From contig CALWHG010000012.1 in NCBI GenBank assembly GCA_944380315.1, forward strand, positions 1 to 51,528: a stretch of DNA of 51,528 bases, read 5' to 3'. Under the pieces are notes generated by a model that saw only the letters and a list, made by a program, of their open reading frames with translations, was not told the origin of the DNA and made no database searches. Source of the stretch: an uncultured Lachnospiraceae bacterium (GTDB lineage: Bacteria; Bacillota; Clostridia; Lachnospirales; Lachnospiraceae). Positions 4,556 to 21,854 of the stretch are shown one piece after another. Numbering within the stretch: the first letter of the stretch is position 1; every line of letters starts with the position of its first letter. The translations under genes were made by a program, and so were the position numbers.

Positions 4556-4665
4556 GCATGGCTGTTTATGCTGTCAGTATTACGCTTGCTGAACAAACAA
4601 GCACAATCCTGAAAAAATTCTTCTACCTCATAAACGGGTACAACGACCGATATATATGGGTTCAT
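4540..4665 (-). pseudogene. Truncated family-2 glycosyltransferase, N-terminal remnant
   Basis: A 41-codon frame starts with ATG overlapping the stop of the adenylate-forming ligase (ATGA), the usual coupling inside this operon. Its first 21 residues, MNPYISVVVPVYEVEEFFQD and one Cys, are the nucleotide-binding start of a GT-A family-2 glycosyltransferase. After that the sequence loses all family resemblance and soon stops, in DNA that looks like the mobile element. I infer that insertion of the element removed the rest of this gene. The polysaccharide operon therefore once continued beyond 4600 and may now lack a sugar transferase, unless the remainder sits beyond the element's far end. Confidence 0.7.
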
Positions 4666-6107: not shown

Positions 6108-6120
6108 TAGACCATCCCCT

Positions 6121-7569
6121 TTAGAACTGATTTCGTTTTATCTTTCCCAGTTCATTTCTTTCAAACGGAATTTCTTGAAAATAGATCTTTTGAATCCTCC
6201 ATGGAAGTGCTGCTTCCTTGTTATATCTAGCTATATATTTTTTGACCTCAGCCTTTATCTCAGAATCGCCAGGCTGTCTACAAATAATATGAGCTACTAA
6301 AAAATCATTTTCGCCACTTATCACTATCTCTTCAACAGCTTTGCATTTTGATATCTCATGTTCTATTATTTCCGGATTTATATTTTCCCCATTGGAAAGG
6401 ATGATCACATTTCCTATCCTGCCTGTCAAAAACAGGTATCCATCTTCATCTATATATCCAAGATCCCCTGTTTTCAGCCATCCGTCTTCCGTTAAAGCAT
6501 TTTCTACCTCATCTCCATAATACCCAGACATTATATGATCCCCTCTGATCAATATCTCTCCATAGTCTGAGATCCTTACCTCATTCCAATCACCGATCTT
6601 TCCAACAGAGCCAGGTTTAGCGAACTCTGTATCTTCATAAGTTACAAAGCCCATGGTCTCAGTCATCCCATAAAATGATGGTGAAGAAATACCACGATGT
6701 TCAAAAAATCTGGCAGCCTCAGGATCCTGAGGTGCTCCTACACTCCCCACCATCTCAAAACAACTCAAGTCCAGGATTCCCGCAGAGGCTTTTTTCATCA
6801 TAAGTCTTAGATAAGACGGGACCCCTATAACTATCTGCGGATGGAAATATCCCATATCGCGTATACCGCTTTGTATATCAGACAGATATGTACATCCTCC
6901 ATGGCACAGATTATCATTAATAAAGCATATTGCCGCTACATGGTATAAAGGCAAAATGATCTGTTCGCATCCTGAAGGAGTTTTGTCACGCGGTCTGAAT
7001 ACCCGCTGCGGAAGAACTACCCACTTACTATGGCCTGAACTTCCTGAACTCATAAGCATAAGAGCCGGGGCCTCAAGATCAATGGTCTTGTCCAAAAATC
7101 CTCTATCATTTATCACAGACAAATCATCTGGTATAGCCGTCCAAACCTGATTCATCAAAGATATATGCTGAATATCTGGCATCTGTTCAAAATCAAGCAG
7201 AAGTTCTCTATCCTCATCATCGCATATGATCGCCACAGGCTCTAAACGATGTAACTCCTCCTGAAAAGCTTTGAGCTGCATATCAAAATTGGTCATAACA
7301 GCTACTGCGCCTATAACAGCTGCAGCGTACATGTAAAGGATCTCTTCGTATCTGTTTCTTCCTGATATAATGACTCTTTTTCCTGAAAAGTCTTTTTTAT
7401 CCAAATGATATGCCGCTTCAAAGACATCCCCTACAAACTCTTCATATGATACCCGGATGATCTGATCACCTGATCTCCATATAAAAGCAGGTCTATCCCC
7501 ATAAGCCTTGCGTATCTTAATAAAAAGTTCATGAACATTAAGTCCCGCACATTCACTGTAGGTCAACAT
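6121..7569 (-). CDS. Adenylate-forming ligase (AMP-binding enzyme) 2
   Basis: A 482-residue paralogue of the preceding enzyme with the same start pattern (L/I-T-Y-x-E-C). Motifs: SSGSSGHSK (174-182), YGMTE, KTGDLGYIDEDG, GRIGNVIILSNGE and a C-terminal Lys in ELGKIKR. The phosphate loop differs from its neighbour (Ser for Thr at two positions). It lies four bases downstream of the acyl carrier protein gene, so carrier and ligase are co-translated. Two ligases for one carrier suggest two substrates or subfunctionalisation. A family-wide scan of the substrate pocket would be needed to separate acyl from aminoacyl activation. Confidence 0.85.
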   Translation of the reverse strand: MLTYSECAGLNVHELFIKIRKAYGDRPAFIWRSGDQIIRVSYEEFVGDVFEAAYHLDKKDFSGKRVIISGRNRYEEILYMYAAAVIGAVAVMTNFDMQLKAFQEELHRLEPVAIICDDEDRELLLDFEQMPDIQHISLMNQVWTAIPDDLSVINDRGFLDKTIDLEAPALMLMSSGSSGHSKWVVLPQRVFRPRDKTPSGCEQIILPLYHVAAICFINDNLCHGGCTYLSDIQSGIRDMGYFHPQIVIGVPSYLRLMMKKASAGILDLSCFEMVGSVGAPQDPEAARFFEHRGISSPSFYGMTETMGFVTYEDTEFAKPGSVGKIGDWNEVRISDYGEILIRGDHIMSGYYGDEVENALTEDGWLKTGDLGYIDEDGYLFLTGRIGNVIILSNGENINPEIIEHEISKCKAVEEIVISGENDFLVAHIICRQPGDSEIKAEVKKYIARYNKEAALPWRIQKIYFQEIPFERNELGKIKRNQF

Positions 7570-7573
7570 ACTA

Positions 7574-7807
7574 TCAGCTCATTTCTAATATAAGATCGCA
7601 AAGATCTTCAACGGTCACGACCCTTCTAAGATTTCTTGGAGATATCCTGATATTAAATTCTTTCTCCAGTCCGCTCAAAAGATCCATGGCCTCAATAGAG
7701 GATATTCCATCCTCACCTAAGAGTTCCATCTCAAGATCGATATCATCTCTGTCTATTACATTTTTTAAATGCTCGAGGACTAATTTCTCTATCATTTCTC
7801 TGTCCAT
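7574..7807 (-). CDS. Acyl carrier protein
   Basis: A 77-residue four-helix carrier protein. The phosphopantetheine site is in GEDGISSIEAMDLL; the serine aligned with the family's Asp-Ser-Leu motif is kept, but the Asp before it is Ser and the Leu after it is Ile. Short, acidic and stand-alone, it fits a dedicated carrier such as DltC rather than the housekeeping fatty-acid ACP. It is flanked by the ligase gene and the membrane acyltransferase gene, which supports a relay: ligase to carrier to membrane acceptor. Confidence 0.85.
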   Translation of the reverse strand: MDREMIEKLVLEHLKNVIDRDDIDLEMELLGEDGISSIEAMDLLSGLEKEFNIRISPRNLRRVVTVEDLCDLILEMS

Positions 7808-7823
7808 ATCTTCCCCTTCATTA

Positions 7824-8888
7824 TTATCTCCTCAGGCAATTACGCCTGGCCTGTATCAGCCTGTTTAGTGCTTCACATATCACTACTATCAGTAATATCC
7901 TGAGTACGTACAAAACTATTCCAATCAATATTGCTGTCCCCAGAGTATAACTTCTGAGATCTCCTGTCTCATACCATGGAAGAGCCAGCATTTCTACTCC
8001 ATGCACACACAGGATATACAAAGAGTATCTTCCAATATACTCAAGAAAACTTATCCCCGGAAACTCTATTTCAGCAAATCCGCTTATGACATATGCTCTC
8101 AGGAGCATTACTGATACCACGATTCCTGTTATATAGTCAAGCATCCAGTATCTATATATATTATCTCCTACATTGGCTTCAGAAAACACAGATCCCCATA
8201 TAAATAAGACAACTGATGTTATACAAAACACAGTACCAAGAGGCTTATACAGTTGTTTCCTTTTCTTTAAAAGCCTCCCTGTTTCCAGAAATCCTAAAGA
8301 AGCGCAAGACTGAACGATAAACCAGGGGGCCTGCATCCTCTCCACATCCGGAAATGATACTGCTGTTATGGTAACAAGCCAGATCAAGACCGTACGTAGC
8401 TTTTCATTTTTGATCAGAAAGATCAGCTGAAAAATAATACCACCTAAAAACATGGTAGGAAGAAACCACAGAGCTATTACTGAGACTGCAGATATACCGA
8501 AGATCTCCATATTCCTTACACATCCAAAAAGTCCTCCAGCTATGATCACTGTGGCTCGTTGAGGATACAAATCTCTGATCAAAGCACCAGTAAGCAAATT
8601 CAACATAGCAGCTGCAATGACAGAAATTCCATACGGTACCAACAGAAGTCTTGCCTGACGTCTGATATACATTTTTAAGGATCTTGCAGGGTGAAAATCA
8701 TATCCTGTAATAATAAAGAACAAAGCAATCGGTACTACTTGGTATCTCAAAAGATTCTGCGCTATAAGATCAAGTCGCTCAGATCCAGTCAATACATCTA
8801 TCATATGCAGATGATGTGCAAAAATAACCATGATCATGAGTATACCCTTCAGCACATCAAACATTCCAATATAGTCTCTTTTTTCCAT
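7824..8888 (-). CDS. Membrane acyltransferase, family 3
   Basis: A 354-residue polytopic membrane protein with about ten hydrophobic segments. It opens with MEKRDYIGMFDVLKGILMIM and FAHHLHMID, the signature N-terminus and histidine region of acyltransferase-3 proteins (as in OatA N-domains and O-acetylases of surface sugars). These move acyl groups across or at the membrane onto polysaccharides. The ATG at 8888 was chosen; a TTG 11 codons earlier is in frame. The gene overlaps the end of the glycosyltransferase upstream and leads into the carrier protein gene, so it is a likely acceptor for the carrier-bound group. Confidence 0.8.
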   Translation of the reverse strand: MEKRDYIGMFDVLKGILMIMVIFAHHLHMIDVLTGSERLDLIAQNLLRYQVVPIALFFIITGYDFHPARSLKMYIRRQARLLLVPYGISVIAAAMLNLLTGALIRDLYPQRATVIIAGGLFGCVRNMEIFGISAVSVIALWFLPTMFLGGIIFQLIFLIKNEKLRTVLIWLVTITAVSFPDVERMQAPWFIVQSCASLGFLETGRLLKKRKQLYKPLGTVFCITSVVLFIWGSVFSEANVGDNIYRYWMLDYITGIVVSVMLLRAYVISGFAEIEFPGISFLEYIGRYSLYILCVHGVEMLALPWYETGDLRSYTLGTAILIGIVLYVLRILLIVVICEALNRLIQARRNCLRR

Positions 8889-9933
8889 AGGCCTTTCTTT
8901 GCTCAGAATTGAATATCTCAAGAGCTTCAGCGCATTTCCTTCCTTCAGTTATTTTTTGAACCATCCTGCGGATAAGCTCAATCATGACTGATAATGGTCC
9001 CAGACACAACAGTTCATAAAATAGCCTTTGCTTATTATCAGCATGCGAGCGCCTGATCAGCAAAAATTCACAGGCTGCATATTTTATGGCTTTTGGGCTG
9101 AAAAAGCATCTGGGTCTGTTTGATTCCCTGATATCCCTGTATAGCCTTCCAAATACTTCAGGAGAAAAGATATTTCTGAAATATATGTGTTCAGTCAAAA
9201 ATCTCTTCTGCTCATGGCTCATGGTAAACAATGTATCATCATAAAATCTTGTCGCAATCTCTTGATATTCTTCTCTCTGCCTTTGCGAAGCCATAGCTGT
9301 TACCTGAGCTTCATGCATTCGATATAAAAGCAGAAACTCATCCTGAATGGCAATCTTTTCTCCCTTCAATAGCATCCTGGTCCACAGTTCCAGATCTTCA
9401 GTGCATGTATATTTTTGATCATACAAAAAAGACTCTATTACTTCCCTTTTAGCTATCACTCCACTATGATTAAGTGGATTAAAAAATAGAAATAAACCTT
9501 TTACCATCTCAGGATCACATCGTCTCAAAGCAGATACAGGATATACTTGCTCATCCTCCAATGCAAACCACTTACAACACGACAATGATATGTCATGGTG
9601 TTCTTCCATAAATCTTATCTGCTGCTCCAGACGGTCTGATCGGCTTATATCATCAGCATCCATGCGTACAATATACTTCCCTTCAGCCATCCTGATGCCT
9701 CGATTCAGGCAAAAAGCCAGTTTTTGATTTTTCTCATTTCTATATATTTTAAAACGAGCATCCTTCTGTCTGAATCTGTTCAGGATCTGCTGTGTTCTAT
9801 CCGTAGAACAGTCATCGATGATCAAGCATTCCCAGTTAGAATATGTTTGTTTAAGGATACTTTCCAATGCCTCAGACAGATATCTTTCCCCGTTATATAC
9901 ACCCATTACTACTGAGACAAACGGCCCTTTCAT
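8857..9933 (-). CDS. Family-2 glycosyltransferase
   Basis: A 358-residue GT-A enzyme. It starts with VSVVMGVYNGERYLSEALES, followed by ECLIIDDCSTDRTQ and the metal-binding DADD in YIVRMDADDISRSDR (about residues 90-104). The C-terminal part is a soluble helical region without clear membrane helices. The family transfers a sugar from a nucleotide donor to a lipid-linked acceptor in the cytoplasm. It is the only complete non-priming glycosyltransferase in the locus, so the sugar repeat may be short, or further transferases were lost or lie elsewhere. Confidence 0.9.
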   Translation of the reverse strand: MKGPFVSVVMGVYNGERYLSEALESILKQTYSNWECLIIDDCSTDRTQQILNRFRQKDARFKIYRNEKNQKLAFCLNRGIRMAEGKYIVRMDADDISRSDRLEQQIRFMEEHHDISLSCCKWFALEDEQVYPVSALRRCDPEMVKGLFLFFNPLNHSGVIAKREVIESFLYDQKYTCTEDLELWTRMLLKGEKIAIQDEFLLLYRMHEAQVTAMASQRQREEYQEIATRFYDDTLFTMSHEQKRFLTEHIYFRNIFSPEVFGRLYRDIRESNRPRCFFSPKAIKYAACEFLLIRRSHADNKQRLFYELLCLGPLSVMIELIRRMVQKITEGRKCAEALEIFNSEQRKAYGKKRLYWNV

Positions 9934-9955
9934 TCATCTTCCTCTTTTCCATACG

Positions 9956-11473
9956 TTATCTTTTTAAAACCCTTAAACATGCAGACTTAATATATGCTAA
10001 CTCCTGTGTTTTTCTATATATGACCAGGAAGGCCCCGTTAGGTACTAAAAGACATGCTGCTACTTTCAATAAAAAACCAAAAAAACCTTGCGGACATGCT
10101 CCGCATATCAAGCCTGTGATCATACCTGTTATCACAGTTACTCCGCCATAAAGGATATACTTGATAAAGTAATCGATCGGAGATCGGTTCAGCCCATAGC
10201 GATAAACTACAAAAGGCTCTATCCAGAACGGCACGAGCAGTGTGCTTATAAATGTGCCCCACAGGATCCCGTCCAGTCCCATGGCCCGTCCAAGCCATAT
10301 AGAAACTGCAAGATTTATAAGGATCTCAGGTATGGGCTTATATCTGTCCATCCAAAACAATCCCATAGCCTCCTTAGTCCTTCCGATCGGGACCCTCATG
10401 CAGAAAAAGTAAAAATTGACCACTATGATCAGTACCGTGTGCGAAGGAAGCAGGTAATCTTTTCCCAGCCAAAGACTTATAAACGGATTGTAAAGACAGG
10501 CAAGGCAAATACATCCAAAGCCAAATACCCAGGCTGAAAAGAAATTGATCTGTATAAAAGCCTGATATTTTTTCTCAGCAGATTCGCTTGCATTGAGATT
10601 TCCAATGCTTGCAGCAAGAGGCGTATATACCAGATTGATCACCGTCTCCAGCACTCGCCTGATCATGATATAATTGCTGTAAATGCCTACAGCAGATATA
10701 CTGACCAGTTTTGCCATCAATATATTGTCAGTACTGAATACCACTACAGATCCAAGCTTATGAAAGACCATGGCTCCCACATTTCGCTTTATGACATTTT
10801 TGTCAGATGTCTTTAAAGGCATGACATCCCTATCCCTAATATAAGGATACATCCTGTCAACCTGCCAGGATACCACCATGTTCTGTACCAATGTCTCAAG
10901 TATCGATATTCCAAGATACAGATAATAATTGCCCGTCTTTATCAAGACCACTATCTCCAGCACATAAGAAACAAGCTTGGCTGAAGTATGGATAACTGTT
11001 TCGACATACTTTTTCTGATCCACAAAAAGGATTGAGGCCTTGTATATAAAAAAGTATGATATACCAGTATTGAACACGTTCAATATATATATAAGTTCTA
11101 TATTAGGTATGTTCTCAGGCATCTCCTTAACAAACAGGTTAAGATATGGAGCAAGGAGACTGCCAGCCAGTATGATAGATGTTCCAACAATATAATATGC
11201 TCTTTTATAGAGAGCCATGAGTGATTTGATCTTTTCTATATCATTTCTAGCCATGGGCTCATAAAGGCTGAAAACTATGGATGTACCAAATCCAAGCTCT
11301 GCAAGAGAAAGCATGGATAGGATATCCGAAAACAGACCGTTAAGTCCCAGGTATTCCTGTCCCAATACAGAAACGAATACCCTTCTTAGCACAAAGCTGG
11401 CAGAAACAAGAAGCACCTGACTGATAAGAGCAAATTTTACATTTTTAGCAATTTGATCTACTCTTGATCTCAT
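9956..11473 (-). CDS. Wzx-type polysaccharide flippase
   Basis: A 505-residue MOP-superfamily transporter with about 14 hydrophobic helices. The N-terminus (NVKFALISQVLLVSASFVLR and YLGLNGLFSDILSMLSLAEL) is typical of Wzx/PST proteins that flip undecaprenyl-linked repeat units across the membrane. The ATG at 11473 has GGAG seven bases ahead; an upstream TTG has no such site. It overlaps the end of the polymerase gene by 29 bases. It forms the export pair with the adjacent Wzy. Confidence 0.88.
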   Translation of the reverse strand: MRSRVDQIAKNVKFALISQVLLVSASFVLRRVFVSVLGQEYLGLNGLFSDILSMLSLAELGFGTSIVFSLYEPMARNDIEKIKSLMALYKRAYYIVGTSIILAGSLLAPYLNLFVKEMPENIPNIELIYILNVFNTGISYFFIYKASILFVDQKKYVETVIHTSAKLVSYVLEIVVLIKTGNYYLYLGISILETLVQNMVVSWQVDRMYPYIRDRDVMPLKTSDKNVIKRNVGAMVFHKLGSVVVFSTDNILMAKLVSISAVGIYSNYIMIRRVLETVINLVYTPLAASIGNLNASESAEKKYQAFIQINFFSAWVFGFGCICLACLYNPFISLWLGKDYLLPSHTVLIIVVNFYFFCMRVPIGRTKEAMGLFWMDRYKPIPEILINLAVSIWLGRAMGLDGILWGTFISTLLVPFWIEPFVVYRYGLNRSPIDYFIKYILYGGVTVITGMITGLICGACPQGFFGFLLKVAACLLVPNGAFLVIYRKTQELAYIKSACLRVLKR

Positions 11474-12767
11474 GTGTTTCTCCAAATATCCTTGATCTTT
11501 CTTCAACTACTCTGTCGTCAAATCCACAGCCCATAATGAGGATAGACATGACCGTTATAAATAAAGGATACCTGAGGGTGTTGTCCGTGGCTGATACTAT
11601 AAGCGTCCAGAGCATGATACCAGCAGTGTTTATGGCCAGATCAGTCCTGTCCCCACGTCCAAAGTAGGCTGTCCTGAAAACTGTCATGGATAGGAGCCAG
11701 ATTATATATCCCCAGAAGCCTATATCAACAAAATACTGAAGAAAATCATTGTGTATCGTGTTGAGCCCCAAAAGATTTCCGTCATTTTGAAGCTGATAAG
11801 TCAAAAAGCCTATCCCATTGCCCAGAAAGGCAGGGGAAAACGTATAGTATCTTTTAGCCCATTCATATGCATCCGATCTGGACATGGTGTCGACTCCTGC
11901 CTTCTCCAGCCACTCAAATAAACCTTCGTGTACGAGTCCTACGTAAATAAGAAGAACAGCACAGGAAAATAGCATGATAAGCCCTACTATCTTCATGACA
12001 GCCCTTTTATTTCCTTTTTTTGCCCAAAGCTTAAGCAGTAAGCATACGGGCACTACAGCAAGCATAGCGATGATCGCTATTCTTTTAAATGCAGAGATAT
12101 ACAAAAATGCGGCTATCAGAAATATCGTCCAGAACAAAAAGCTTTTCCTGGGATTTATCATCATGTACATCAAGTATGCACCTACGCAGAAAGCCAGTTC
12201 ATGAACTTCTGCATTTTGGATTATGTCTCCTGTCTCACCCGCAAAGGTCCGTATAAGTATCCAAAGTTCCTGGATATAAGCGTTTACACCATATTCCAGC
12301 ATAACGCTTCCTATATAAGAGCAATAAGGTATCAATAAGGCTGCAAGATTGTACCATATGCCCTTTTCTCCAAAAATATACAGGAAAGCCCCTGCTGCAA
12401 ACACAGAAGAAAAATGATTTATAAATAGAAAATTTGAGGAAAGCCCTCTTGCTATGATCGCCGGTTCCTCCCTGTTATAAGCCCATATAAATAGAGAGAA
12501 AATGAGGAAAACAAAGGTAGGAGCACTGAAGGCCAGACAGGACTTAAATGCTGCTGCCATCCTTGGGATATCAGGTTTAACTATAAAGCAGCAAAAGGCG
12601 GAAAAGATAAGCAGGAGTGCCAGCACATGTCTGTATGTGACATACACTCCGAGATCCACATACCCATCAATCAAATAATACATAATGGATCCCAGCGCCA
12701 CAAAATATATGACTTTTATCCTGCTTTTGACCCTTTCCTCAAACATCTGAACTAATATGAACAGCAT
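11445..12767 (-). CDS. Wzy-like polysaccharide polymerase / O-antigen ligase-type protein
   Basis: A 440-residue membrane protein with about a dozen hydrophobic segments and one large outside loop. The C-terminal half has the Wzy_C pattern: SRSDAYEWAKRYYTFSPAFL, GNGIGF, and NTIHNDFLQYFVDIGFWGY, i.e. the Arg, Gly-x-Gly and His-Asn motifs. These enzymes join repeat units on the outer face of the membrane. Start at MLFILVQ is uncertain; MFEERVK seven codons later is an alternative and no strong ribosome site favours either. Confidence 0.8.
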   Translation of the reverse strand: MLFILVQMFEERVKSRIKVIYFVALGSIMYYLIDGYVDLGVYVTYRHVLALLLIFSAFCCFIVKPDIPRMAAAFKSCLAFSAPTFVFLIFSLFIWAYNREEPAIIARGLSSNFLFINHFSSVFAAGAFLYIFGEKGIWYNLAALLIPYCSYIGSVMLEYGVNAYIQELWILIRTFAGETGDIIQNAEVHELAFCVGAYLMYMMINPRKSFLFWTIFLIAAFLYISAFKRIAIIAMLAVVPVCLLLKLWAKKGNKRAVMKIVGLIMLFSCAVLLIYVGLVHEGLFEWLEKAGVDTMSRSDAYEWAKRYYTFSPAFLGNGIGFLTYQLQNDGNLLGLNTIHNDFLQYFVDIGFWGYIIWLLSMTVFRTAYFGRGDRTDLAINTAGIMLWTLIVSATDNTLRYPLFITVMSILIMGCGFDDRVVEERSRIFGETHEIKSRSNC

Positions 12768-12788
12768 CGATCATCATCTGGACTCAGA

Positions 12789-14726
12789 TTATACCCCGAT
12801 GCTCTTAAACCTCCTTGTGTTATTCATGGCTGCAGAAAGCAGGCTTCTCATGGTCCTGGAGCTGTCAGAAGAGCTTTCCGCCGCTCCTACCTCATATTCT
12901 ATCTCAGCGTTTTTCAGGAGATCCCTTTTGTCTACGATAAAGCTAAACCTATGTATCATATGATCTACAGATGCCCTGTCAGTATCTTCGATCACTGCTA
13001 TAAATTGTGCCTTTCCGTTATAAACAAAATATGATTCATCCTTAGACACTGCTTCTTTTAATGCCTCTGCAAAGAACTTTATCAGCTTATCGCCTTCCTC
13101 GCGCCCAAACAGTTTGTTGACCTCCGGCTGATTTAAGATATTTATCGCCATACATGCGACCTTATCATCAAGCAACCTGTGGTCATAGTCTTTAAGATAT
13201 GAGTCAAAGGCATTTCTGTTATTAAGTCCTGTCAGAGCATCTGTATAGAAGACATACTGGATAATATCGTTAAGTCTTCCAAGAAGTATCGCACAGCATC
13301 CGCAGATGACCAGAAGAAATACAGCTGCTATGGCTGTATAAAGCATCACGTTCAATCCCTTTTCAACGGAAACCGAAGAGAGAGTCGAGATATATGCTGC
13401 GCCAAGATACTTATTGTATTCATCATTTGTTTTTTCCGTGATGACATAAAGCTCACTGAGCTCCGTGATCAGGCCATCTATGCCCTCTTCTATCTCTGAT
13501 ACCGCATCTGCATAACTCTGATCATCGAAAGCTGAACAGGTCTTATCAGAGGCGAAGCAGGAAGATACATCTACGGTATTCATATCTGCCCCGGTTCCTG
13601 TCGACACAGACTCGGAAGAAGGTATCCCTCCGCAAATCCCAAGGCACTGTCCAAAAACCTGCAGGATATACTGACAATATGCTGAATCTATCAGTGCATA
13701 AGCTTCTGTTTGCTTATGGTCTCTCCAGCTGAAGATCAGCTTGTCATAAGTGACGGTCTGGTCTCCATCCCCGACTACATTTCCGTAGCTGTCTAACAGT
13801 TCCTTTTCATATACATCATCCAGGATATACTCATAGGTTATATTGGTATTTCCAGACTGCCTCATCTTCTCCACATAGGCATCTATAAGCACCAATACAT
13901 CCTGTATCTTTTCTTCTTCTGCATCGCCAGTTATCTGGTTATTGCTTATGCGTTCCCTGTATTTGGCCGTCAAAAGATTTTTATCCTTCGTTACCTGATG
14001 CTCTAGTATCTTGGAAAATAACTTAGATATGTCCACCGACTGAATATAATAAAATCTGTCAGTCAAATCGGAAAATGACATACCTGTTGAGGCGGCTCTG
14101 AAGTTATTACCATTTGCTGTCCTTCTTGCAAATGCTTCCAGCGTGGATTCTACACTGGAGTCTATGATCTCCATCATCTCGATATAGTCATAATTTGCAC
14201 TATTGATTTCCGTCAGAGGATTTATGGTATAACTGTTATTGACATATTGTTCAGAATAAGCCTCAAAATATACATCCAGGATTTCATCCAGTACTTCTCT
14301 GGCAAAATATTCATTTTCCTTTCCACCAGCCTCGAAGGAGATTATATAAGTCACTGGCTCATACTGATATTCCTGTCCCTCATCCAGCAGAGCCTCCTTC
14401 CTCATCTGCTCATCCTCATCGATCACCTCTTCAATAGTGATACCAGAGATAATACTGTCAACAGAATAATCTGCTTTATCCAAACCAAGATTACGTATGA
14501 CCTGTGATACTACTGAAGAAGATTTTATCTGCTCAACGTCGAGTGTCTCTCCTGTAGGAGTAAGCCCAATAGCTGCATTTTCCCCTTCATAACGTATGAC
14601 CGCGGACGCTACATAGGTCTGCATCGAAGAAAGGAAGACATACACTGCCGTAGTAAGAGCCATGCATACAATTATTATCCAAGGCAGCCATTTTTTGATA
14701 TATCTGGAAATCTGAAACTCTTTCAT
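12789..14726 (-). CDS. Wzz-like chain-length protein fused to degenerate GGDEF
   Basis: Two membrane helices (about residues 17-36 and 463-485) bracket a large extracytoplasmic domain, the arrangement of Wzz/polysaccharide co-polymerase proteins. After the second helix a cytoplasmic GGDEF-type domain begins (YTDALTGLNNRNAF, about 496-509) and runs to the end. Its catalytic loop reads NGKAQF (572-577) instead of GG(D/E)EF, and the first metal-binding Asp is replaced in MAINILNQ, so cyclase activity is unlikely. Degenerate GGDEF domains commonly act as nucleotide or protein receptors. A TTG two codons upstream (14732) could also be the start. It follows another Wzz-like gene and precedes Wzy. 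Confidence 0.8.
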   Translation of the reverse strand: MKEFQISRYIKKWLPWIIIVCMALTTAVYVFLSSMQTYVASAVIRYEGENAAIGLTPTGETLDVEQIKSSSVVSQVIRNLGLDKADYSVDSIISGITIEEVIDEDEQMRKEALLDEGQEYQYEPVTYIISFEAGGKENEYFAREVLDEILDVYFEAYSEQYVNNSYTINPLTEINSANYDYIEMMEIIDSSVESTLEAFARRTANGNNFRAASTGMSFSDLTDRFYYIQSVDISKLFSKILEHQVTKDKNLLTAKYRERISNNQITGDAEEEKIQDVLVLIDAYVEKMRQSGNTNITYEYILDDVYEKELLDSYGNVVGDGDQTVTYDKLIFSWRDHKQTEAYALIDSAYCQYILQVFGQCLGICGGIPSSESVSTGTGADMNTVDVSSCFASDKTCSAFDDQSYADAVSEIEEGIDGLITELSELYVITEKTNDEYNKYLGAAYISTLSSVSVEKGLNVMLYTAIAAVFLLVICGCCAILLGRLNDIIQYVFYTDALTGLNNRNAFDSYLKDYDHRLLDDKVACMAINILNQPEVNKLFGREEGDKLIKFFAEALKEAVSKDESYFVYNGKAQFIAVIEDTDRASVDHMIHRFSFIVDKRDLLKNAEIEYEVGAAESSSDSSRTMRSLLSAAMNNTRRFKSIGV

Positions 14727-14752
14727 CCTCAAATCGATCCTTTCAGAGCAAT

Positions 14753-16129
14753 TTACTTTTTCATCCGCTTATCCCTTGACAGCTCCACGGAAGATATATA
14801 CATGTTTACCGAAAGGAAAAACATAAAGGAAAGTCCGCCTATCAACAGTATCCTCTTTGGTAAGGAATGGTGGAGCATGGTACTGGATATAATCTGATTC
14901 ATCCTTGTAGCTGAGTATTCGATCCCTGCTGTCCTTGCCTTTTCAGCCAAGTCCATCAACTCATCGCTTATCTCTGATACCATAGTATCTATAAGTTCGA
15001 CACTTCCAGTACCTGAAGGTCCTGAAAGGGCATTTATCACATTATTGTTTGTTTCTATGCCCTTAAGATAATCGGAAGCAGTCTTACTATAGGATTCTGC
15101 TTCGACTGAAAGGGTGTCTATGCCCACCTTGGTCCTGCCCATATAATACTCACCGCTTTCATCCCAGGTAGGTACAAGCACCACCCTTGTCATTTCCTCT
15201 GCATACATGGATACGGCTTCATTTCTTATCTGGAAGGACGCTTTTGCCCTTTGCTGAGCAAAATCACTCAGACTATTATCATACCTAAGTCTCCCTATAT
15301 ACTCTTCCCTGTCCTTTGACATGCCATTCTGCAAAAGATAGGCTCTGAGATTGTCTTCTATCTGTACATCACTTATATTGATGACCTTTTCTCTTATGGA
15401 GTTGAAGGTCTCATTGTCACTCGATACGAAGCTTCCATTTTCATAAGAAAGTTCATACATATATGTGGAGATGGCATTAGCATATATCTTCAGCCTATCC
15501 ACTATATCCAGATAATCTGTATCCTTAAATTCCTTTTCAGGATCGATCTTTATATTCAGAATGTCAAAATTATCGGCATAATGGTCCATGTGGAATTCCT
15601 TATATGAATCAGCCACCAGCTGAACAACATTTTCAGCATCAAGGTGTGATGTCTTTTTATCAGCCGAAAATGTCAGGATAAACTCAGTAGAAACATGGTA
15701 GCGTGATTCATCAAAGGCATCACCCGAAACTGCCGGAATGACGGACAGGCATTCAGAAAGATCCTTTACCGTGACATTTTTCAAGGCACCTTTATCAATA
15801 GCTCTCTGAATAACCTCATCGCAGATGATGTCTGACATATTATATCTTGTGCCATTTGCATTCTGCCCCTTTGAAGCATTGTCATAATTAAGATTGATAA
15901 GGATCGAAGCCGTAGAATCCAGAGCCCCCTGATACAGTCCGGCAAAAAGCGCCATAAAGATCAGAGTCATTATCAATACTCTGAATCTGAAAAGTGGTAT
16001 CCTGAGGAAGACCGACTTCACCGTCTTTACGGAAAAGATCCTGGACTTAAAATAAAGGTTAAGGATCGCTGCCCCTAAAATGATGATGACGATAAATGTA
16101 AATAATACTATAATGGATAAACCTACCAT
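14753..16129 (-). CDS. Second Wzz-like membrane protein
   Basis: A 458-residue protein with an extra N-terminal helix (about 5-27), a helix near 50-68, a long polar and coiled outside domain, and a C-terminal helix (about 427-446) with a short basic tail. The layout and the position beside Wzy match polysaccharide co-polymerases that set chain length. It lacks the GGDEF extension of its neighbour. GGAG lies eight bases before the ATG. Both proteins share 'AENVVQLV/REVLDEIL'-like helices and may form a mixed ring; this is inference. Confidence 0.65.
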   Translation of the reverse strand: MVGLSIIVLFTFIVIIILGAAILNLYFKSRIFSVKTVKSVFLRIPLFRFRVLIMTLIFMALFAGLYQGALDSTASILINLNYDNASKGQNANGTRYNMSDIICDEVIQRAIDKGALKNVTVKDLSECLSVIPAVSGDAFDESRYHVSTEFILTFSADKKTSHLDAENVVQLVADSYKEFHMDHYADNFDILNIKIDPEKEFKDTDYLDIVDRLKIYANAISTYMYELSYENGSFVSSDNETFNSIREKVINISDVQIEDNLRAYLLQNGMSKDREEYIGRLRYDNSLSDFAQQRAKASFQIRNEAVSMYAEEMTRVVLVPTWDESGEYYMGRTKVGIDTLSVEAESYSKTASDYLKGIETNNNVINALSGPSGTGSVELIDTMVSEISDELMDLAEKARTAGIEYSATRMNQIISSTMLHHSLPKRILLIGGLSFMFFLSVNMYISSVELSRDKRMKK

Positions 16130-16144
16130 ATAAAGCTCTCCAGT

Positions 16145-17410
16145 TTAGTAGCAATTGATATCGATAACCACAAGCTCAGGCTGATTGCCTATCCTGACAG
16201 GTCCTTTGTTTGTCAATCCTGTATTGACTATCAGCGGGGCTCCATTTAGTTCATACATGCCTGCAATATAATGATCATAAAGATCATTGCTTATTTCGGG
16301 AAAAAGGATATGTTCCCCACTCGAATTTGCATAAAGACCGCCTATATATGGTATCCTCATTACTCCTCCATGGGTGTGGCCGCACAGGATCAGGTCTCCC
16401 CATATTTCTGAGTCATACATCTCAAGTATCGTGGGCTCATGACATAAAAACAGCTTGAAATGATTAGTGTCCTCTGTGAGGAAACTGCTGAATGCCTCCC
16501 CCGCATATTCCCAAAATGCTCCGGGACTCGATGTGACGACGCCAAAGATATCTATGGTAGTCTCGCCTATCATCAGTTCTTCTTCAGAGTTGAAAAGCAC
16601 ATTGACTCCCATACTTTCAAGCATGACTCTCAGATCATCATCGAGTTTATAGAACCTGCCTGAATCCCTGCTGTCCTCAGTACAGCCAAGGAGCTCATCT
16701 ACACTTTGAAGGTTCATGTCTTTTGTGCCAAAGGCTTTTTCAGTTTCATTGTTCCCGTATATGAAATATGTAGGGGCTACGGAAACAGCTTCCCGGCAAA
16801 GATCAATTACTATATCGGAAGAATCCTCGCGCCTGTCCAGCATATCTCCTGTCATAACGATCAGGTCTGGATCCAGTTCCTTTATACGTTCGATCAGCAC
16901 ATTATTGTTATCTCCATATATTGTGTTGTGAAGATCTGAAAGCTGAAGGATCCTGATACTGTCCAAAGCCTTGACAGATCCAATCTGATAAAAAGTCTCT
17001 TTAAAGCTTTTCTCCTTCGCGGCACTTTTCCAGACTATCATCGCAAGCATAAATGTCCCTGCTATCAGTAACCAGAGAACTGCCTTAAGGATAAGCTTGA
17101 ACCAGGATCCTTTTTCTTTATGCGTATCAATCTGAGACTTTGTTTTTCTCGTGCCAACCTTGCGATATTCCACATTAAGCTCACGACCTGCTGCCCACTT
17201 AAAGCTTTCTCTGACAGTATCATAGTATTCTGTCTCGAAAAGCTCCTGTGATGCTTCTGGCCTATATCCAATGATCGCTTTATCATCGGAAATCTCCAGA
17301 AGCACATATTTATCTGTCCAATTTCTGAAGGCAGCTTCAGGAAGCTTTTCCTTAAGTCTCCTGCAAACCATCCTCCAGGTCATATCGATAGCAGCCCTTT
17401 TAGTTACCAT
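16145..17410 (-). CDS. DnaA-N-like domain, membrane helix, metallophosphoesterase
   Basis: A 421-residue three-part protein. Residues about 10-85 (TWRMVCRRLKEKLPEAAFRN, W, then FETEYYDTVRESF) match the N-terminal domain of DnaA in pattern: Trp, a helix, 'aF.nW', then 'y.d.i...'. One membrane helix follows (about 106-126). The rest is a calcineurin-like phosphoesterase: LSDLH (157-161), GDMLDRR (188-194), GNNE (219-222), a CHE motif and GHTHGG, all metal ligands present. The enzyme domain should face outside. The ATG at 17410 has GGTGA five bases ahead, two bases after the upstream stop. This domain mix is odd in a polysaccharide locus; the substrate may be a lipid-linked phosphate. Confidence 0.75.
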   Translation of the reverse strand: MVTKRAAIDMTWRMVCRRLKEKLPEAAFRNWTDKYVLLEISDDKAIIGYRPEASQELFETEYYDTVRESFKWAAGRELNVEYRKVGTRKTKSQIDTHKEKGSWFKLILKAVLWLLIAGTFMLAMIVWKSAAKEKSFKETFYQIGSVKALDSIRILQLSDLHNTIYGDNNNVLIERIKELDPDLIVMTGDMLDRREDSSDIVIDLCREAVSVAPTYFIYGNNETEKAFGTKDMNLQSVDELLGCTEDSRDSGRFYKLDDDLRVMLESMGVNVLFNSEEELMIGETTIDIFGVVTSSPGAFWEYAGEAFSSFLTEDTNHFKLFLCHEPTILEMYDSEIWGDLILCGHTHGGVMRIPYIGGLYANSSGEHILFPEISNDLYDHYIAGMYELNGAPLIVNTGLTNKGPVRIGNQPELVVIDINCY

Positions 17411-17411
17411 A

Positions 17412-18455
17412 TCATTCACCATTCTTGAGAAGCTGTTCAGCCACCCAGGCACCTATAAGATGGGATCCATCTCTGTTTGGGTGAAGCCCGTCTGGCAGGA
17501 TATATCTATCCTTATTTTCACTTGTTATGCCGCACTTTTCTATATCCATCAGTTCAACATCCAGCTCAGTGCATATATCCCTTATGATCGTATTCAGCCA
17601 TATATCCTCTTCACCGGTATTATAATAAGTACAAAGATATATATGACTTTCAGGATAATTTCTCTTTATATCCTCCACCATGGCTCTGTAGGCTGAGATC
17701 AGCAGATCCATGGGCGCACCTCCGAAAACATCATTGGCTCCAATCCACACGAATATGATATCAGGCACAGCTCCTATGCCATCCAGCTCAGCAGTCCTTC
17801 TGTCAGATGCAAGCCTATCTACACTTCTGAATGCCCAAGAATACTCCGTCACTCCCGAACCAGCACAAGCATTTATCCTGCTTATATCCATGCCAAGCCT
17901 TTTTGCGACCCTGTACCACCACATATCGCTAAGCTCAACATCTGCTGTAGGATACTGGGGTTCATACCCGGTCGGTATGTAACCGTAATATGCACTGATA
18001 CTATCTCCCAGCACAGCCATGCTTTTCCCATCAAAGGCTTTTATGAGTATACTTTCCCGCTTGCGAGCTTCCTGAGCTTCAGCTGACAAACATCCTTTTA
18101 CCAAGAGCCTGTCCTTCTCATCTTCTGAAGCAGAAAAGCTTATATATGCCGTGTCCGTATCTACCCCTATATCTGCTCCGAGGCCCTTTATATCTATGCT
18201 ATTTATTACTTCTGCATTTCCATCTAAAATCAGGACCTCATGAGAACTATCATCACCATAGCTTATTGAAATGGAGTTAAGCTCATAGGGCTGAGCAGCA
18301 AGATCGACAAGATACTGAGTCTCATCACTCTCAAGATAAGCCATAAGCGGGATGACTTCTGCTTCCCTATCCCCACTATAGCTACATCCTGATGCCAGGA
18401 TTGCTGTGATGAATATGCTTGCAAAGATGAACGGATTCATGTATCTCCTGAACAT
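17412..18455 (-). CDS. SGNH/GDSL-family lipoprotein
   Basis: A 347-residue secreted protein with a lipobox ending ILASGC (Cys24), so probably anchored to the outer face of the membrane. The C-terminal two-thirds is an SGNH hydrolase: MAVLGDSISAYYG (Ser in GDS, about 150-152), INACAGSG (Gly block), IGAND (Asn block), and DGLHPNRDGSHL (Asp and His). All four blocks are present, so it may be an active esterase or acyltransferase. AGGAG lies five bases before the ATG, within the end of the coiled-coil gene. SGNH proteins modify surface sugars in many systems; DltD is a distant analogue. Confidence 0.85.
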   Translation of the reverse strand: MFRRYMNPFIFASIFITAILASGCSYSGDREAEVIPLMAYLESDETQYLVDLAAQPYELNSISISYGDDSSHEVLILDGNAEVINSIDIKGLGADIGVDTDTAYISFSASEDEKDRLLVKGCLSAEAQEARKRESILIKAFDGKSMAVLGDSISAYYGYIPTGYEPQYPTADVELSDMWWYRVAKRLGMDISRINACAGSGVTEYSWAFRSVDRLASDRRTAELDGIGAVPDIIFVWIGANDVFGGAPMDLLISAYRAMVEDIKRNYPESHIYLCTYYNTGEEDIWLNTIIRDICTELDVELMDIEKCGITSENKDRYILPDGLHPNRDGSHLIGAWVAEQLLKNGE

Positions 18456-19222
18456 CTGGTCTCCTGGATATCCTCAACATGGTCATCTTCTATCTTTATA
18501 ATATCTTTTTGCCTGTCATCAAGAAGATCAAAAGGTTCATCCGAATACAGGTCTTCTATCTTAATAGGCATCTTTTCTATAAGCTGTCCGAGTTCATTGT
18601 AATTTTTAACAAGCGTATTCTGGATCCTATTGAAGGCATCGAGGTATTCCTTAAACTGAAATATGGCACTGGTAAATTTCTCTTCACGTTCAGATATCTT
18701 CTTTTTTAGATTGGTTTCTATCCTCACCTGATAAAGATCCGCATTGATACGAGCCTCGGCTTCAAGCTTTCTGGAATTTTCTCTTGCAGACTCTATCATC
18801 TCCTCCGATCTTGTCTTCGCTGACGAAAGTATGTTATCAGATTCCACCTTCGCTGAGATCCTTATTTTCTCAGCATCTTCCTTTGCCTGAGCGATATATT
18901 TGGATATCTCCTCATATGATGATTCATATTCCCTAAGCCTATTTTGAAGCTCCGTTATCTCTTCCTTACCCTTACCAGCTTCGATAATTTTTTTAAGCTC
19001 TTCAACCTGCTTCTCAAGATCAGCCTTTGCCGAATCTATAGCCTCATCCTTTGCCGCCCGCTCAGTCTCTAGCTCCTTTTTCAACTCCTCCTGAGCCTCA
19101 ATGGTCCTGTCCTTTTCTGATCTGGCTTTTTCAAGCTCTTCTAAAAGATACTCCACATACTCATCGTTATATTCATTTTCTGACTTCTGAGAACGTCTGA
19201 ATAAACCGGAAAAAAAACCCAT
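18437..19222 (-). CDS. Coiled-coil protein, DivIVA-like
   Basis: A 261-residue protein, almost all heptad-patterned coiled coil from about residue 25 to 215, rich in Glu and Lys, with a short hydrophobic and basic tip (MGFFSGLFRRSQ) that could insert into a membrane. No enzyme motifs. DivIVA and similar scaffolds recruit proteins to poles or septa through such tips, so this may localise the polysaccharide machinery. The tip does not match the classic DivIVA start, so the family call is weak. GGGAGG lies eight bases before the ATG. It is the first gene after the riboswitch terminator. Confidence 0.55.
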   Translation of the reverse strand: MGFFSGLFRRSQKSENEYNDEYVEYLLEELEKARSEKDRTIEAQEELKKELETERAAKDEAIDSAKADLEKQVEELKKIIEAGKGKEEITELQNRLREYESSYEEISKYIAQAKEDAEKIRISAKVESDNILSSAKTRSEEMIESARENSRKLEAEARINADLYQVRIETNLKKKISEREEKFTSAIFQFKEYLDAFNRIQNTLVKNYNELGQLIEKMPIKIEDLYSDEPFDLLDDRQKDIIKIEDDHVEDIQETRCSGDT

Positions 19223-19280
19223 AAATATTTCCTCCCTTATTTCAACTGCATCAAACTACATCCATGATTTTTCTAAAAAA

Positions 19281-19314
19281 CAAAAAAGGCTGCAAACAGA
19301 CACTGTTTGCAACC
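19281..19314 (-). terminator. Riboswitch expression-platform terminator
   Basis: On the minus strand GGTTGCAAACAG pairs with CTGTTTGCAGCC across a three-base loop, followed by TTTTTT. Its 5' arm overlaps the 3' end of the c-di-GMP aptamer, so ligand binding can decide whether transcription continues into the polysaccharide operon. Confidence 0.85.
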
Positions 19315-19412
19315 GAACTACCTTGTATACCCCCAGTGCTGATAAACTCACGCACAAGCAACCTAAGGCTCCCAGCTTTGCGTCCCTGCATTTCTGTAGG
19401 TTTGCCTTTTTT
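19306..19412 (-). promoter_or_regulatory. Cyclic-di-GMP-I (GEMM-I) riboswitch
   Basis: The minus-strand RNA carries the family core: GGCAAACC, a small stem capped by a GAAA tetraloop, GGGACGCAAAGC, then CCUUAGG with a receptor-like arm and GGUAG. These match the conserved GEMM-I blocks in order and spacing. The base at the ligand-selecting position, two before the CAAACC block, is G, as in c-di-GMP rather than cGAMP sensors. It sits between a strong promoter and a terminator overlapping the aptamer end, upstream of the gene at 18437-19222 and the operon behind it. Whether ligand turns expression on or off needs folding of both states. Confidence 0.88.
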
Positions 19413-19445
19413 ACTAATATGAATAATATACAGTATTATTTTTGT

Positions 19446-19474
19446 ATTTTAATGTATTTTCAGGGTGTTGTCAA
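19446..19474 (-). promoter_or_regulatory. Promoter of the riboswitch and polysaccharide operon
   Basis: Minus strand: perfect TTGACA -35, 17-base spacer, TAAAAT -10, about 30-35 bases before the aptamer core. It lies downstream of the priming transferase gene, so that gene is outside riboswitch control unless read from elsewhere. Confidence 0.85.
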
Positions 19475-19524
19475 CGCACAATACTGGCAAACCCCGTCGT
19501 TGTCTTAGGCAAAATCAAGCTCGC

Positions 19525-20214
19525 TCATCTGCCTTCTCTATTTAGCATAGCAAGGGGAGTCTTCAGTATAAGTTTAAAATCAAGCCACATGTTCCTGTGT
19601 TCTATATAATAAAGATCCATTTCAACCCAATCATTAAAAGCTATAGTATTTCGATCAGGCTGTACCTGCCATATACAGGTTATGCCTGGAGTAACAAGGA
19701 GCCTTAATTTCTGATAGTCATTATACCTGTCTACCTCCTCGGGAAGCGGAGGCCTTGGCCCTACTATGCTCATATCTCCTTTCAGGACATTTATGAACTG
19801 TGGAAGTTCGTCAAGACAGGTCTTTCTGAGGAAACCGCCTACCCTTGTTATTCTTGGGTCATTATCCAACTTAAAGACAGGCCCATCCATCATATTTAGC
19901 TTGATCAGTTCAGATTTTAATCTATCAGCATCCTTGATCATAGTCCGGAATTTATAAAGCCTGAAAGGTTTTCCATGCCTGCCAATACGTATCTGCTCAT
20001 AGATCACAGGACTATTAATGTCATCCAGCTTTATGATCAAGGCTGTAAGCAGCATAGCCGGGGATGTTAAAATGATAAGTAGAAATGACACAACTATATC
20101 AAAAGCTCTCTTTTTTCTCCAGTAGCCCAGAAATGATCTGGATAATATATCCTTCAATCTGGCATTTGTCTTTGGGTCCTTGCCATACAGGTCAATATAG
20201 TATCCACTCTTCAT
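19525..20214 (-). CDS. Priming sugar-phosphate transferase (WbaP/PglC type)
   Basis: A 229-residue enzyme of the bacterial sugar transferase family, which moves a sugar-1-phosphate from a nucleotide sugar to undecaprenyl phosphate, the first step of repeat-unit assembly. Landmarks: [15 protein letters not shown] (membrane segment with the Lys-Arg lead), [35 protein letters not shown] and [12 protein letters not shown], all in the expected order. It has a single hydrophobic segment and a short N-terminus, so it lacks the extra membrane domain of long WbaP forms. It is separated from the rest of the locus by the riboswitch promoter. The upstream gap has no promoter that I can call with confidence. 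Confidence 0.92.
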
Positions 20215-20476
20215 ATCACTTTTGATCCTGCTTTCAACTTTATTCTAATATATAGTTTTACACAAATTTGCTTTATTATCAAATATTTTCTTAGCATTTT
20301 GCTTTTTAATCATTTATGAGGCTATATATTAACGATCATTTGCGAAACAGCAGCTTATACTCAAGATATCAGAAGATAATGATAATAATTTGCTGATAAT
20401 TGGATCCTGAAAAATATGATATGTGGTTAGGAGAAATAATCCTCCAGCTTTCCTCTAACCCTGATATTGATAAACC

Positions 20477-20505
20477 TTGTACCAAGGGACAAAATATGCT
20501 ATGAT
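20477..20505 (+). promoter_or_regulatory. Promoter of the 6S-like RNA
   Basis: Plus strand: TTGTAC -35, 17-base spacer, TATGAT -10, ending about seven bases before the structured RNA. The preceding gap 20215-20476 is AT-rich and shows no gene. Confidence 0.65.
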
Positions 20506-20510
20506 TTAAT

Positions 20511-20690
20511 CAGCCTGAGATGTGCGTTTGGTTTATTCAATTACTTCCACAATCTGACATACGGGACTTCGGTATTGATAGTGTGGATGTCGGGCCGCCA
20601 TCGAGCGGATGGCTGAAGCAGCTTCCGAGAAGACCCACCCTGGCTTTAAGCTGGGAGTCACTTATAAACCGACGGCACCTTGGGTTTTTT
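20511..20690 (+). ncRNA. ssrS: Probable 6S RNA
   Basis: About 180 bases with the 6S layout. A long closing stem pairs the start (GTGCG and TTTGGTTTAT) with the end (ATAAACCGACGGCAC). ACTTCC pairs with GGGAGT just inside it, around a large central bubble. The bubble holds a small hairpin on each side (CATACGGGACTTCGGTATTG, and CCCTGGCTTTAAGCTGGG), and a terminal hairpin arm contains GCCATCGAGCGGATGGC. It starts just after a good promoter and ends in a T run. 6S RNA mimics an open promoter and binds the housekeeping RNA polymerase. Size, fold and promoter agree; a covariance-model search would settle it. Confidence 0.7.
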
Positions 20691-20742
20691 ATCATTTAGA
20701 TATCGATATGGGTGTGCAATATATGACAAGGAGGTTATATAC

Positions 20743-21201
20743 ATGATCGATTATGGTAGGCTGCTTGAGATGGCCATAGAAAAGCTGCCGGATTCATATG
20801 CTCCCTATTCTCATTTTCACTGCTCTGCCATGCTGCTCTGCAGTGACGGGACCGTGTTTCACGGCATGAACATTGAAAATGCTGCCTATACCCCTACCAT
20901 CTGTGCTGAGCGCTGCGCCATATTCAAGGCAGTCTCAGAGGGCCACAGAGATTTCGTGGCCATAGCGGTCGTAGGCTGTTCAGAAGAGTTCCTTGAGACC
21001 GAGGACTTCAAAAGGGAGCATCGTCTTCCAAAGGGCGGCGGTGAAAGCGGTCCCTGCGGCGTCTGCCGTCAGGTCATGCAGGAGTTCTGCGACCCGGAGA
21101 GATTCGATATCATCCTGGGACATTCGGCCGATGATTATACCGTATACAAGCTCAAGGATCTGTACCCCCATGCATTTGGGCCTGCAGATCTTGGATTATA
21201 A
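20743..21201 (+). CDS. cdd: Cytidine deaminase
   Basis: A 152-residue enzyme of pyrimidine salvage that converts cytidine or deoxycytidine to uridine forms. The substrate-binding part reads GMNIENAAYTPTICAERCAI, with the zinc ligand Cys and proton-shuttle Glu in CAER, and the two other zinc Cys in PCGVCRQ. The spacing between the blocks carries an extra charged loop (EDFKREHRLPKGGGESG) not usual in the short family. The ATG at 20743 follows AAGGAGG. It starts 50 bases after the 6S-like RNA and may be partly read through from it. Confidence 0.93.
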   Translation: MIDYGRLLEMAIEKLPDSYAPYSHFHCSAMLLCSDGTVFHGMNIENAAYTPTICAERCAIFKAVSEGHRDFVAIAVVGCSEEFLETEDFKREHRLPKGGGESGPCGVCRQVMQEFCDPERFDIILGHSADDYTVYKLKDLYPHAFGPADLGL

Positions 21202-21224
21202 ATAAACTCAGAGAGGTGAAACAT

Positions 21225-21854
21225 ATGTCAAAGCGTGGTTTTGGTAAATATTTCGGACTTGCGGCATTTACAGCTGCCGCAGCACTGCTGGTAAAGTACC
21301 TCAAGGACTTTACTGATTTTGATGAGGCTGCGGAGCCCAGCATATCAAGCCTGAAGTCAAGCTCCACAAAGACCAAGGAGGCCGTAAAGCGCACCTATAT
21401 ATCCATCAAGGATAAGGAAGGCGTAAAGGAGGCTGCGGGCGACCTTGCAAAGGCTGCCGGACAGATGGCAAAGGATGCAGGCAACATAGCTGTCACAGCC
21501 GGAAAGACCACCGTGGATACGGTAAAGGATATCAAGTCAAAGTACGACGTAGACCCCGAGGCTGCAAAGCAGGAGGTCATGGGCAATCTTAAGGAGATGA
21601 AGGATGATCTCACAGATACCTTCTCTGAGGCTGCCGAAAAGATCAGCGGTATCTGGAAGTCTGACGATGACGAGGAGTGCGAACCCGAGGATCTCTTCAG
21701 TGAGGCCTGCGCCGAGGATGTGGAGGAAGCCGTTGAGGAAGCTGCAGAGGAAGCCGGCGAGGCTTCTGAAGCCTGCTGCGAGGCTCCCTGTGACGAGGAC
21801 AAGGACGATGAGCCGAAGCCTGAGGCTCCCACAGTGACTGATGATACGATCTGA
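21225..21854 (+). CDS. Small helical protein with acidic Cys-containing tail
   Basis: A 209-residue protein. The N-terminus (YFGLAAFTAAAALLVKYLKD) is a likely membrane or membrane-associated helix. The middle is Ala/Lys/Asp repeats (GDLAKAAGQMAKDAGNIAVT) similar to YtxH-like or stress-type amphipathic proteins. The tail is very acidic and has four Cys (AEDVEEAVEEAAEEAGEASE, then CC and PCDED). No enzyme motifs. The ATG at 21225 has GAGAGGTG ahead. It follows cdd by 23 bases and ends in a terminator, so the two form a short operon. Function unknown. Confidence 0.65.
   Translation: MSKRGFGKYFGLAAFTAAAALLVKYLKDFTDFDEAAEPSISSLKSSSTKTKEAVKRTYISIKDKEGVKEAAGDLAKAAGQMAKDAGNIAVTAGKTTVDTVKDIKSKYDVDPEAAKQEVMGNLKEMKDDLTDTFSEAAEKISGIWKSDDDEECEPEDLFSEACAEDVEEAVEEAAEEAGEASEACCEAPCDEDKDDEPKPEAPTVTDDTI

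Follow-up and report, generated by a model that had tools for sequence, protein, structure and literature searches.

The DNA analysed here, hereafter the window, comprises 51,528 nucleotides of an uncultured Lachnospiraceae bacterium (GenBank assembly GCA_944380315.1, contig CALWHG010000012.1, positions 1 to 51,528 of the forward strand) and carries on its reverse strand a Wzy-type polysaccharide locus. Within this locus an open and continuous reading frame of 421 residues (16145-17410), which starts right after the end of a GDSL-type hydrolase gene, encodes a protein composed of an N-terminal head, a basic linker, a single transmembrane helix and a metallophosphoesterase domain (Table 1). A first-pass annotation made from the letters alone had described it as a DnaA-N-like domain joined by one membrane helix to a metallophosphoesterase, and this architecture is confirmed by the reading frame, the profile matches, the predicted fold, the membrane helix and the domain PF00149, whose curated score is passed (45.1 bits versus 21.5). 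Judged by sequence and predicted structure, the protein unites a homologue of DnaA domain I with one membrane helix and a YaeI-like domain of a clade that lacks the histidine of the GNH motif. The AAA+ ATPase and DNA-binding domains of DnaA are not found in it, since the head is followed by the membrane helix and the phosphoesterase, and the host genome possesses its own dnaA (G000:C20). The PHROGs families matched by the protein are a phosphoesterase and an SbcD-like one, and no others. A full-length model built from two rows was poor in the phosphoesterase (mean predicted local distance difference test score, pLDDT, 55.5) and was not used for the fold search.

Four other genomes (G018, G003, G264 and G740) share this architecture, which makes five genomes from two genera of one family. 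Of 25 genomes in the genus three have clear heads; the family (397 genomes) yielded the window genome and G264, a set of 98 relatives of G264 yielded G264 and G740, and the order (392 genomes) yielded the window genome alone, apart from a weak match in an 898-residue frame of G039. These genome sets overlap, and three further weak matches of the head profile within the genus (G020, G006 and G024) were not counted as clear heads.

On the evidence taken together the head is a well-supported homologue of DnaA domain I, and we regard this kinship as very probable. The annotation had seen DnaA-N in the N-terminal 85 residues, and this identity withstood the refuting check that the annotation itself had set for residues 10-85: it is favoured by the predicted fold (two helices, a beta hairpin, a helix and a strand), which superposes on the solved DnaA domain I, as well as by three kinds of profile comparison. 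The reverse search provides the strongest sequence evidence. A head profile that was built without any DnaA sequence was run against 81 genomes of the phylum and gave six non-self matches with E <= 0.01 in six other genomes, namely four DnaA proteins above the NCBIfam cut-off, one DnaA start of 104 residues truncated at the edge of a contig (TIGR00362, E 3.5e-10) and one FlhF. The motif DHSTV, tried as a second mark of DnaA, was present in none of the six, and their identity was taken from the NCBIfam matches instead. Profile-profile alignment with hhalign reached a score of 22.0 (E 0.0014, 74 columns, probability 17.5%), which none of 400 column shuffles equalled; with an earlier four-row version 1 of 300 shuffles scored as high. 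The DnaA model TIGR00362 aligns its positions 1-82 with window residues 12-93 and matches three of the five heads from its very first position (E 4.2e-4, 0.0025 and 0.075), with no match reported for the heads of G018 (E <= 1) and G003 (E <= 0.1). The part of the assignment that did not hold fully concerns the domain family PF11638 named by the annotation: it matches the N-terminal region of the window protein with E 0.0013 and 18.8 bits, and the curated cut-off of 24.6 is not reached, nor is it on the genome scan (22 bits). In a PF11638 scan of 120 genomes the window head (22.0 bits) exceeded every listed match in a frame not of DnaA size (next 19.2).

Several results weigh against this homology. 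At E <= 10 PF11638 matched none of the four remaining headed proteins, and as proof of head identity on its own it was dropped, being too weak and matching one of five headed proteins. Earlier and smaller head profiles retrieved no DnaA-sized frame in the family or the order. A single-sequence search of the PDB placed DnaA domain I third (E 0.23) behind two short stretches of Schlafen proteins (E 0.046 and 0.055); a Schlafen identity was set aside because the better of these matches is a short stretch. The five-row head profile did not retrieve the host DnaA from its own genome at E <= 10, which speaks against a close kinship with that particular DnaA and fits the helix spacing described below. 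Weak matches of the head profile in frames of about 900 residues (G129 and G010) belong to proteins that by their sequence look DNA polymerase I-like.

The tryptophan of helix 1, present in all five heads as in DnaA, served as anchor for the comparison of the two, in which the partner-binding residues were located by a fixed offset from it. In Bacillus subtilis residues T26, W27 and F49 of domain I are reported to be required for DnaD recruitment (PMC10201431), and W27 and F49 for binding of SirA (PMC4285326). At the T26-equivalent position threonine occurs in none of the heads versus 25 of 26 DnaA proteins of the family, and at the W27-equivalent position tryptophan occurs in two heads versus all 26 DnaA proteins, whose site was located with a pattern that demands it. 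The F49-equivalent position is uninformative, as phenylalanine is found in just one of the 26 DnaA compared. On the other hand, a tryptophan in helix 3 is common to the five heads (in G740 only with a four-residue gap), at a place where all 26 DnaA proteins have glutamate or aspartate. Since T26 and W27 are mostly not kept and the helix 3 tryptophan is the head's own, the head looks specialised for a partner other than those of DnaA. Four heads carry an aromatic residue in both helix 1 and helix 2 (G018 has isoleucine in the second place), with a spacing of 19 between the two. The B. subtilis alignment and five DnaA matches from other families show the same spacing, compared with 21 (25 of 26) or 23 (1 of 26) in DnaA of the host family. 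Aligned locally, the window head scores 68-94 with the five DnaA proteins of other families, which were selected by the search, and 47 with the host DnaA. From spacing and scores we conclude that the head did not arise by recent copying of the resident dnaA; its origin is likely an old duplication or an import.

The phosphoesterase half has a history of its own. In a tree of 43 domains (L006 was omitted as the same gene as L034_3441) the five headed phosphoesterases and the headless L003 form one clade with support of 100/99. The GNH histidine is absent in all six and present in all 37 others. This clade-wide loss was missed by the annotation, whose overall interpretation stands in part. By family precedent the histidine is presumed to be catalytic and seven further residues are presumed to be metal ligands. 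The window copy, with asparagine instead of histidine, and L003 have retained all seven presumed ligands, G018 has lost one, G003 and G740 three each and G264 six; among the 37 phosphoesterases outside the clade there is one row with one changed ligand. The G264 copy also fails the PF00149 cut-off (13.9 bits). An intact second phosphoesterase is encoded in the locus of exactly the three heaviest losers, G003, G264 and G740. This pattern fits a division of labour in which a headed copy accompanied by another enzyme decays and nonetheless keeps its head. The window genome has one further relative, which is intact and located on another contig and another branch of the tree. As L003 is placed beside the window copy (98/91), its missing head suggests a loss.

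Table 1. Parts of the headed protein and neighbouring features of the polysaccharide locus (window coordinates)
Feature	Position	Strand	Remarks
Wzy/O-antigen ligase-type polymerase	11445..12767	-	PF04932 E 1.1e-9
Wzz-like protein with C-terminal degenerate GGDEF domain	12789..14732	-	PF00990 E 7.1e-16; Wzz 0.047
Co-polymerase-like membrane protein	14753..16129	-	conserved neighbour; no Pfam family at cut-off; named by position and phmmer resemblance of several relatives to next gene
YaeI/LpxG-like metallophosphoesterase domain	16145..16993	-	residues 140-421 and stop; PF00149 E 2e-11; NF008460 (YaeI) E 2.8e-21, below cut-off; seven presumed metal ligands kept; GNH to GNN
Single transmembrane helix	17030..17095	-	residues 106-127; hydropathy maximum 2.25; no second transmembrane-like stretch
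Basic linker	17096..17155	-	residues 86-105; 6 Lys/Arg within the 20 residues preceding the helix; residues 87-101 pLDDT <50
DnaA domain I-like head	17156..17410	-	residues 1-85
GDSL-type hydrolase, lipoprotein-like start	17412..18455	-	PF13472 E 1.2e-18; ends just before head gene
DivIVA-like coiled-coil protein, proposed docking partner	18437..19222	-	PF05103 E 4.7e-7; 30.3 bits versus curated 28 (passed)
DivIVA-like C-terminal part with motif PI...D.(F/Y)S..P	18515..18676	-	from alignment of DivIVA-like proteins
Undecaprenyl-phosphate sugar transferase	19525..20214	-	PF02397 E 4e-68; TIGR03025 E 2.6e-82, below cut-off

All five headed loci are Wzy-type polysaccharide loci with a common gene order: the DivIVA-like gene, the GDSL hydrolase gene (in two), the headed phosphoesterase, the intact phosphoesterase (in three), the co-polymerase-like gene, the Wzz-GGDEF gene and the Wzy-type polymerase, ahead of which the G003 stretch ends. 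The co-polymerase gene is uncommon, its profile matching 10 of 397 family genomes at E <= 1e-5. In G740 (L106:7713-8852) and G003 (L034:4361-5503) the headed and the intact phosphoesterase genes are separated by a glycosyltransferase-like gene, which G264 lacks at this place. The Wzz-like protein of the window reads YNGKAQF where GG(D/E)EF is expected, and its relatives in L003, L034, L035 and L045 are also devoid of GG(D/E)EF; this GGDEF domain is probably a second non-catalytic enzyme domain in the locus. Downstream of the polysaccharide genes two adjoining AMP-binding (acyl-activating) enzymes are encoded on the reverse strand (4662-6107 and 6121-7569).

The DivIVA-like gene either adjoins the headed gene or is one gene off in all five loci. 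Among ten headless loci six could be counted (L087 and L003 were dropped on account of a nearby contig end, L102 and L103 because none of their genes was recognised as a phosphoesterase), and a DivIVA-like gene was seen in two of these six phosphoesterase and co-polymerase loci, a count made with one phmmer query that misses diverged DivIVA-like genes. Near the C-terminus of the DivIVA-like proteins the motif PI...D.(F/Y)S..P is found in 5 of 5 head loci versus 0 of 9 others, with a pattern that was chosen post hoc, and looser forms of it are carried by relatives. Whether this C-terminus occurs solely together with the head was tested, and the pairing proved not to be strict; DivIVA-like proteins of headless genomes, among them G275 and G019, are likewise detected by the C-terminal profile. 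The neighbour and its motif can be considered as a lead, not as proof. The protein-interaction role which the annotation had suggested for the head, perhaps with the coiled-coil protein, fits this gene order. The window DivIVA-like protein lacks the (F/I)(N/G)GY motif that its relatives have close to the N-terminus; its own first residues are MGFFSGLF followed by basic residues, perhaps another mode of membrane contact. In a different locus common to G275 and G019, DivIVA-like genes occur in tandem (L128:4711-6330 and L132:10230-11930); the genes nearby look CotH- and VTC-like, and the queries made there found no phosphoesterase or DnaA-like head.

Concerning orientation, the number of lysines plus arginines on the N-terminal side of the membrane helix is equal to or higher than that on the other side in all five headed proteins, with a clear bias in two. 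An outward-facing phosphoesterase, as the annotation assumed, with a cytoplasmic head is inferred from this charge distribution, which agrees in direction or is equal throughout. It should not be taken for granted because UpsH, another one-helix phosphoesterase, is reported to face the cytoplasm according to protease protection (PMC11898649).

We give about even chances to the explanation that the head is a repurposed docking domain, most likely on a DivIVA-like scaffold, and that the phosphoesterase half is in transition to a non-catalytic subunit. The headed protein would then serve a Wzy-type polysaccharide assembly system as an accessory subunit. Its head would dock in the cytoplasm, most likely on the neighbouring DivIVA-like coiled-coil protein, and in this way the polymer machinery could be placed at particular membrane sites. 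The outer half may bind or slowly cleave an undecaprenyl-diphosphate-linked intermediate, and where the locus encodes a second, intact phosphoesterase the headed copy would have become a pseudoenzyme that acts as scaffold or regulator. A phosphoesterase in this type of locus would probably deal with such intermediates; UpsH, which belongs to the same superfamily, is reported to free undecaprenyl phosphate from undecaprenyl-diphosphate-linked polymers in B. subtilis (PMC11898649). On the best reading the phosphoesterase half is on its way to a role in polymer assembly as a subunit whose catalysis is lost or altered.

Other explanations have to be weighed against docking. The head could merely dimerise the membrane protein by pairing via the helix 1 tryptophan, as domain I of Escherichia coli DnaA is reported to do (PMC4285326), and the two tryptophans kept in every head would agree with this; however, domain I of B. 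subtilis is described as monomeric in the same paper, and the tryptophans may be core residues, which makes self-association rather unlikely. The head might also be a nucleic-acid-binding KH-like domain that shares only its fold with DnaA, as in DciA. This is quite improbable, since B. subtilis DnaA domain I leads by 4 Z units and the reciprocal search returned DnaA in five of six matches. If the protein were a plain working phosphoesterase, with the window copy alone performing the undecaprenyl-diphosphate step and the head being incidental, one would understand why the window copy and L003 have kept their presumed ligands and why no other phosphoesterase is encoded among the 14 reading frames scanned (window 4662-21854). 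The replaced GNH histidine of the whole clade and the retention of the head in five genomes, though the enzyme decays in three of them, render this possibility quite unlikely too.

A connection with the chromosome was considered in two forms. CpsD, a ParA-like capsule protein, is reported to bind ParB in Streptococcus pneumoniae (PMC4574921), and by analogy a membrane-tethered DnaA domain I homologue could link surface-polymer assembly to replication or the cell cycle, via a DnaA-type partner or the DivIVA-like scaffold. Such a link is improbable, and for replication itself the DnaA partner residues T26 and W27, which are mostly replaced, speak against it. The head could also be a membrane-tethered decoy or sensor that binds partners of DnaA domain I (helicase loaders, DnaD, SirA-like or DiaA-like proteins) and so couples polymer synthesis to replication. 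Both its homology to domain I and the CpsD precedent would be in line with that, but the same replacements affect residues which DnaD (both) and SirA (W27) are reported to need, and we consider this role highly improbable.

The finding suggests that domain I, known as the interaction hub of the replication initiator, can be lifted out and reused as a module on a membrane protein of polysaccharide assembly. Decaying headed phosphoesterases beside intact paralogues offer a natural test of the role of the head after catalysis is gone, and binding could be tested directly on the DivIVA-like neighbour, whose C-terminal motif is conserved. All parts belong to known families and their combination is apparently undescribed: the literature search found no paper linking the DnaA N-terminal domain to a metallophosphoesterase, or to transmembrane segments and polysaccharide, no paper joining DivIVA, exopolysaccharide and metallophosphoesterase, and one on DnaA_N domain architecture.

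Among known systems DnaA domain I itself (PF11638; B. subtilis 4tps, Helicobacter pylori 2wp0) resembles the head in fold, order of strands and helices, length and helix 1 tryptophan, and B. subtilis DnaA aligns with it ungapped over 72 residues, though not significantly (E 0.23). Unlike DnaA, the headed protein is membrane-borne and without domains II-IV, T26 and W27 are mostly replaced, and the helix 3 tryptophan is new. DnaA_N outside chromosomal DnaA is also reported for DnaA-like proteins of Rickettsia plasmids; these differ in being plasmid-encoded with a C-terminal position of the domain, and what that report says of them includes no membrane phosphoesterase (PMC4316617). CpsD, a bacterial tyrosine kinase (BY-kinase), is reported as a further case in which a fold of chromosome maintenance serves a polysaccharide machine (PMC4574921), but it is a ParA-like kinase, in contrast with the DnaA-like head, and no BY-kinase was reported among the 14 scanned reading frames around the head gene. 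The YaeI/LpxG-type enzymes and UpsH (YpbG) share domain family, motif pattern and N-terminal membrane helix with the window protein, the likeness to the one-helix UpsH being one of architecture (PMC11898649). The window protein, however, scores far below the NCBIfam equivalog cut-offs and its clade is without the GNH histidine. Finally, NF005206 (PRK06672), an NCBIfam family of hypothetical proteins of 341 residues, gives no match with the window protein at E <= 0.1; its first approximately 80 positions match domain I of three DnaA proteins (L136, L137 and L138; E 1.4e-9 to 2.3e-11). It seems to represent another non-DnaA protein with a DnaA domain I-like start, and further proteins with this module may await description.
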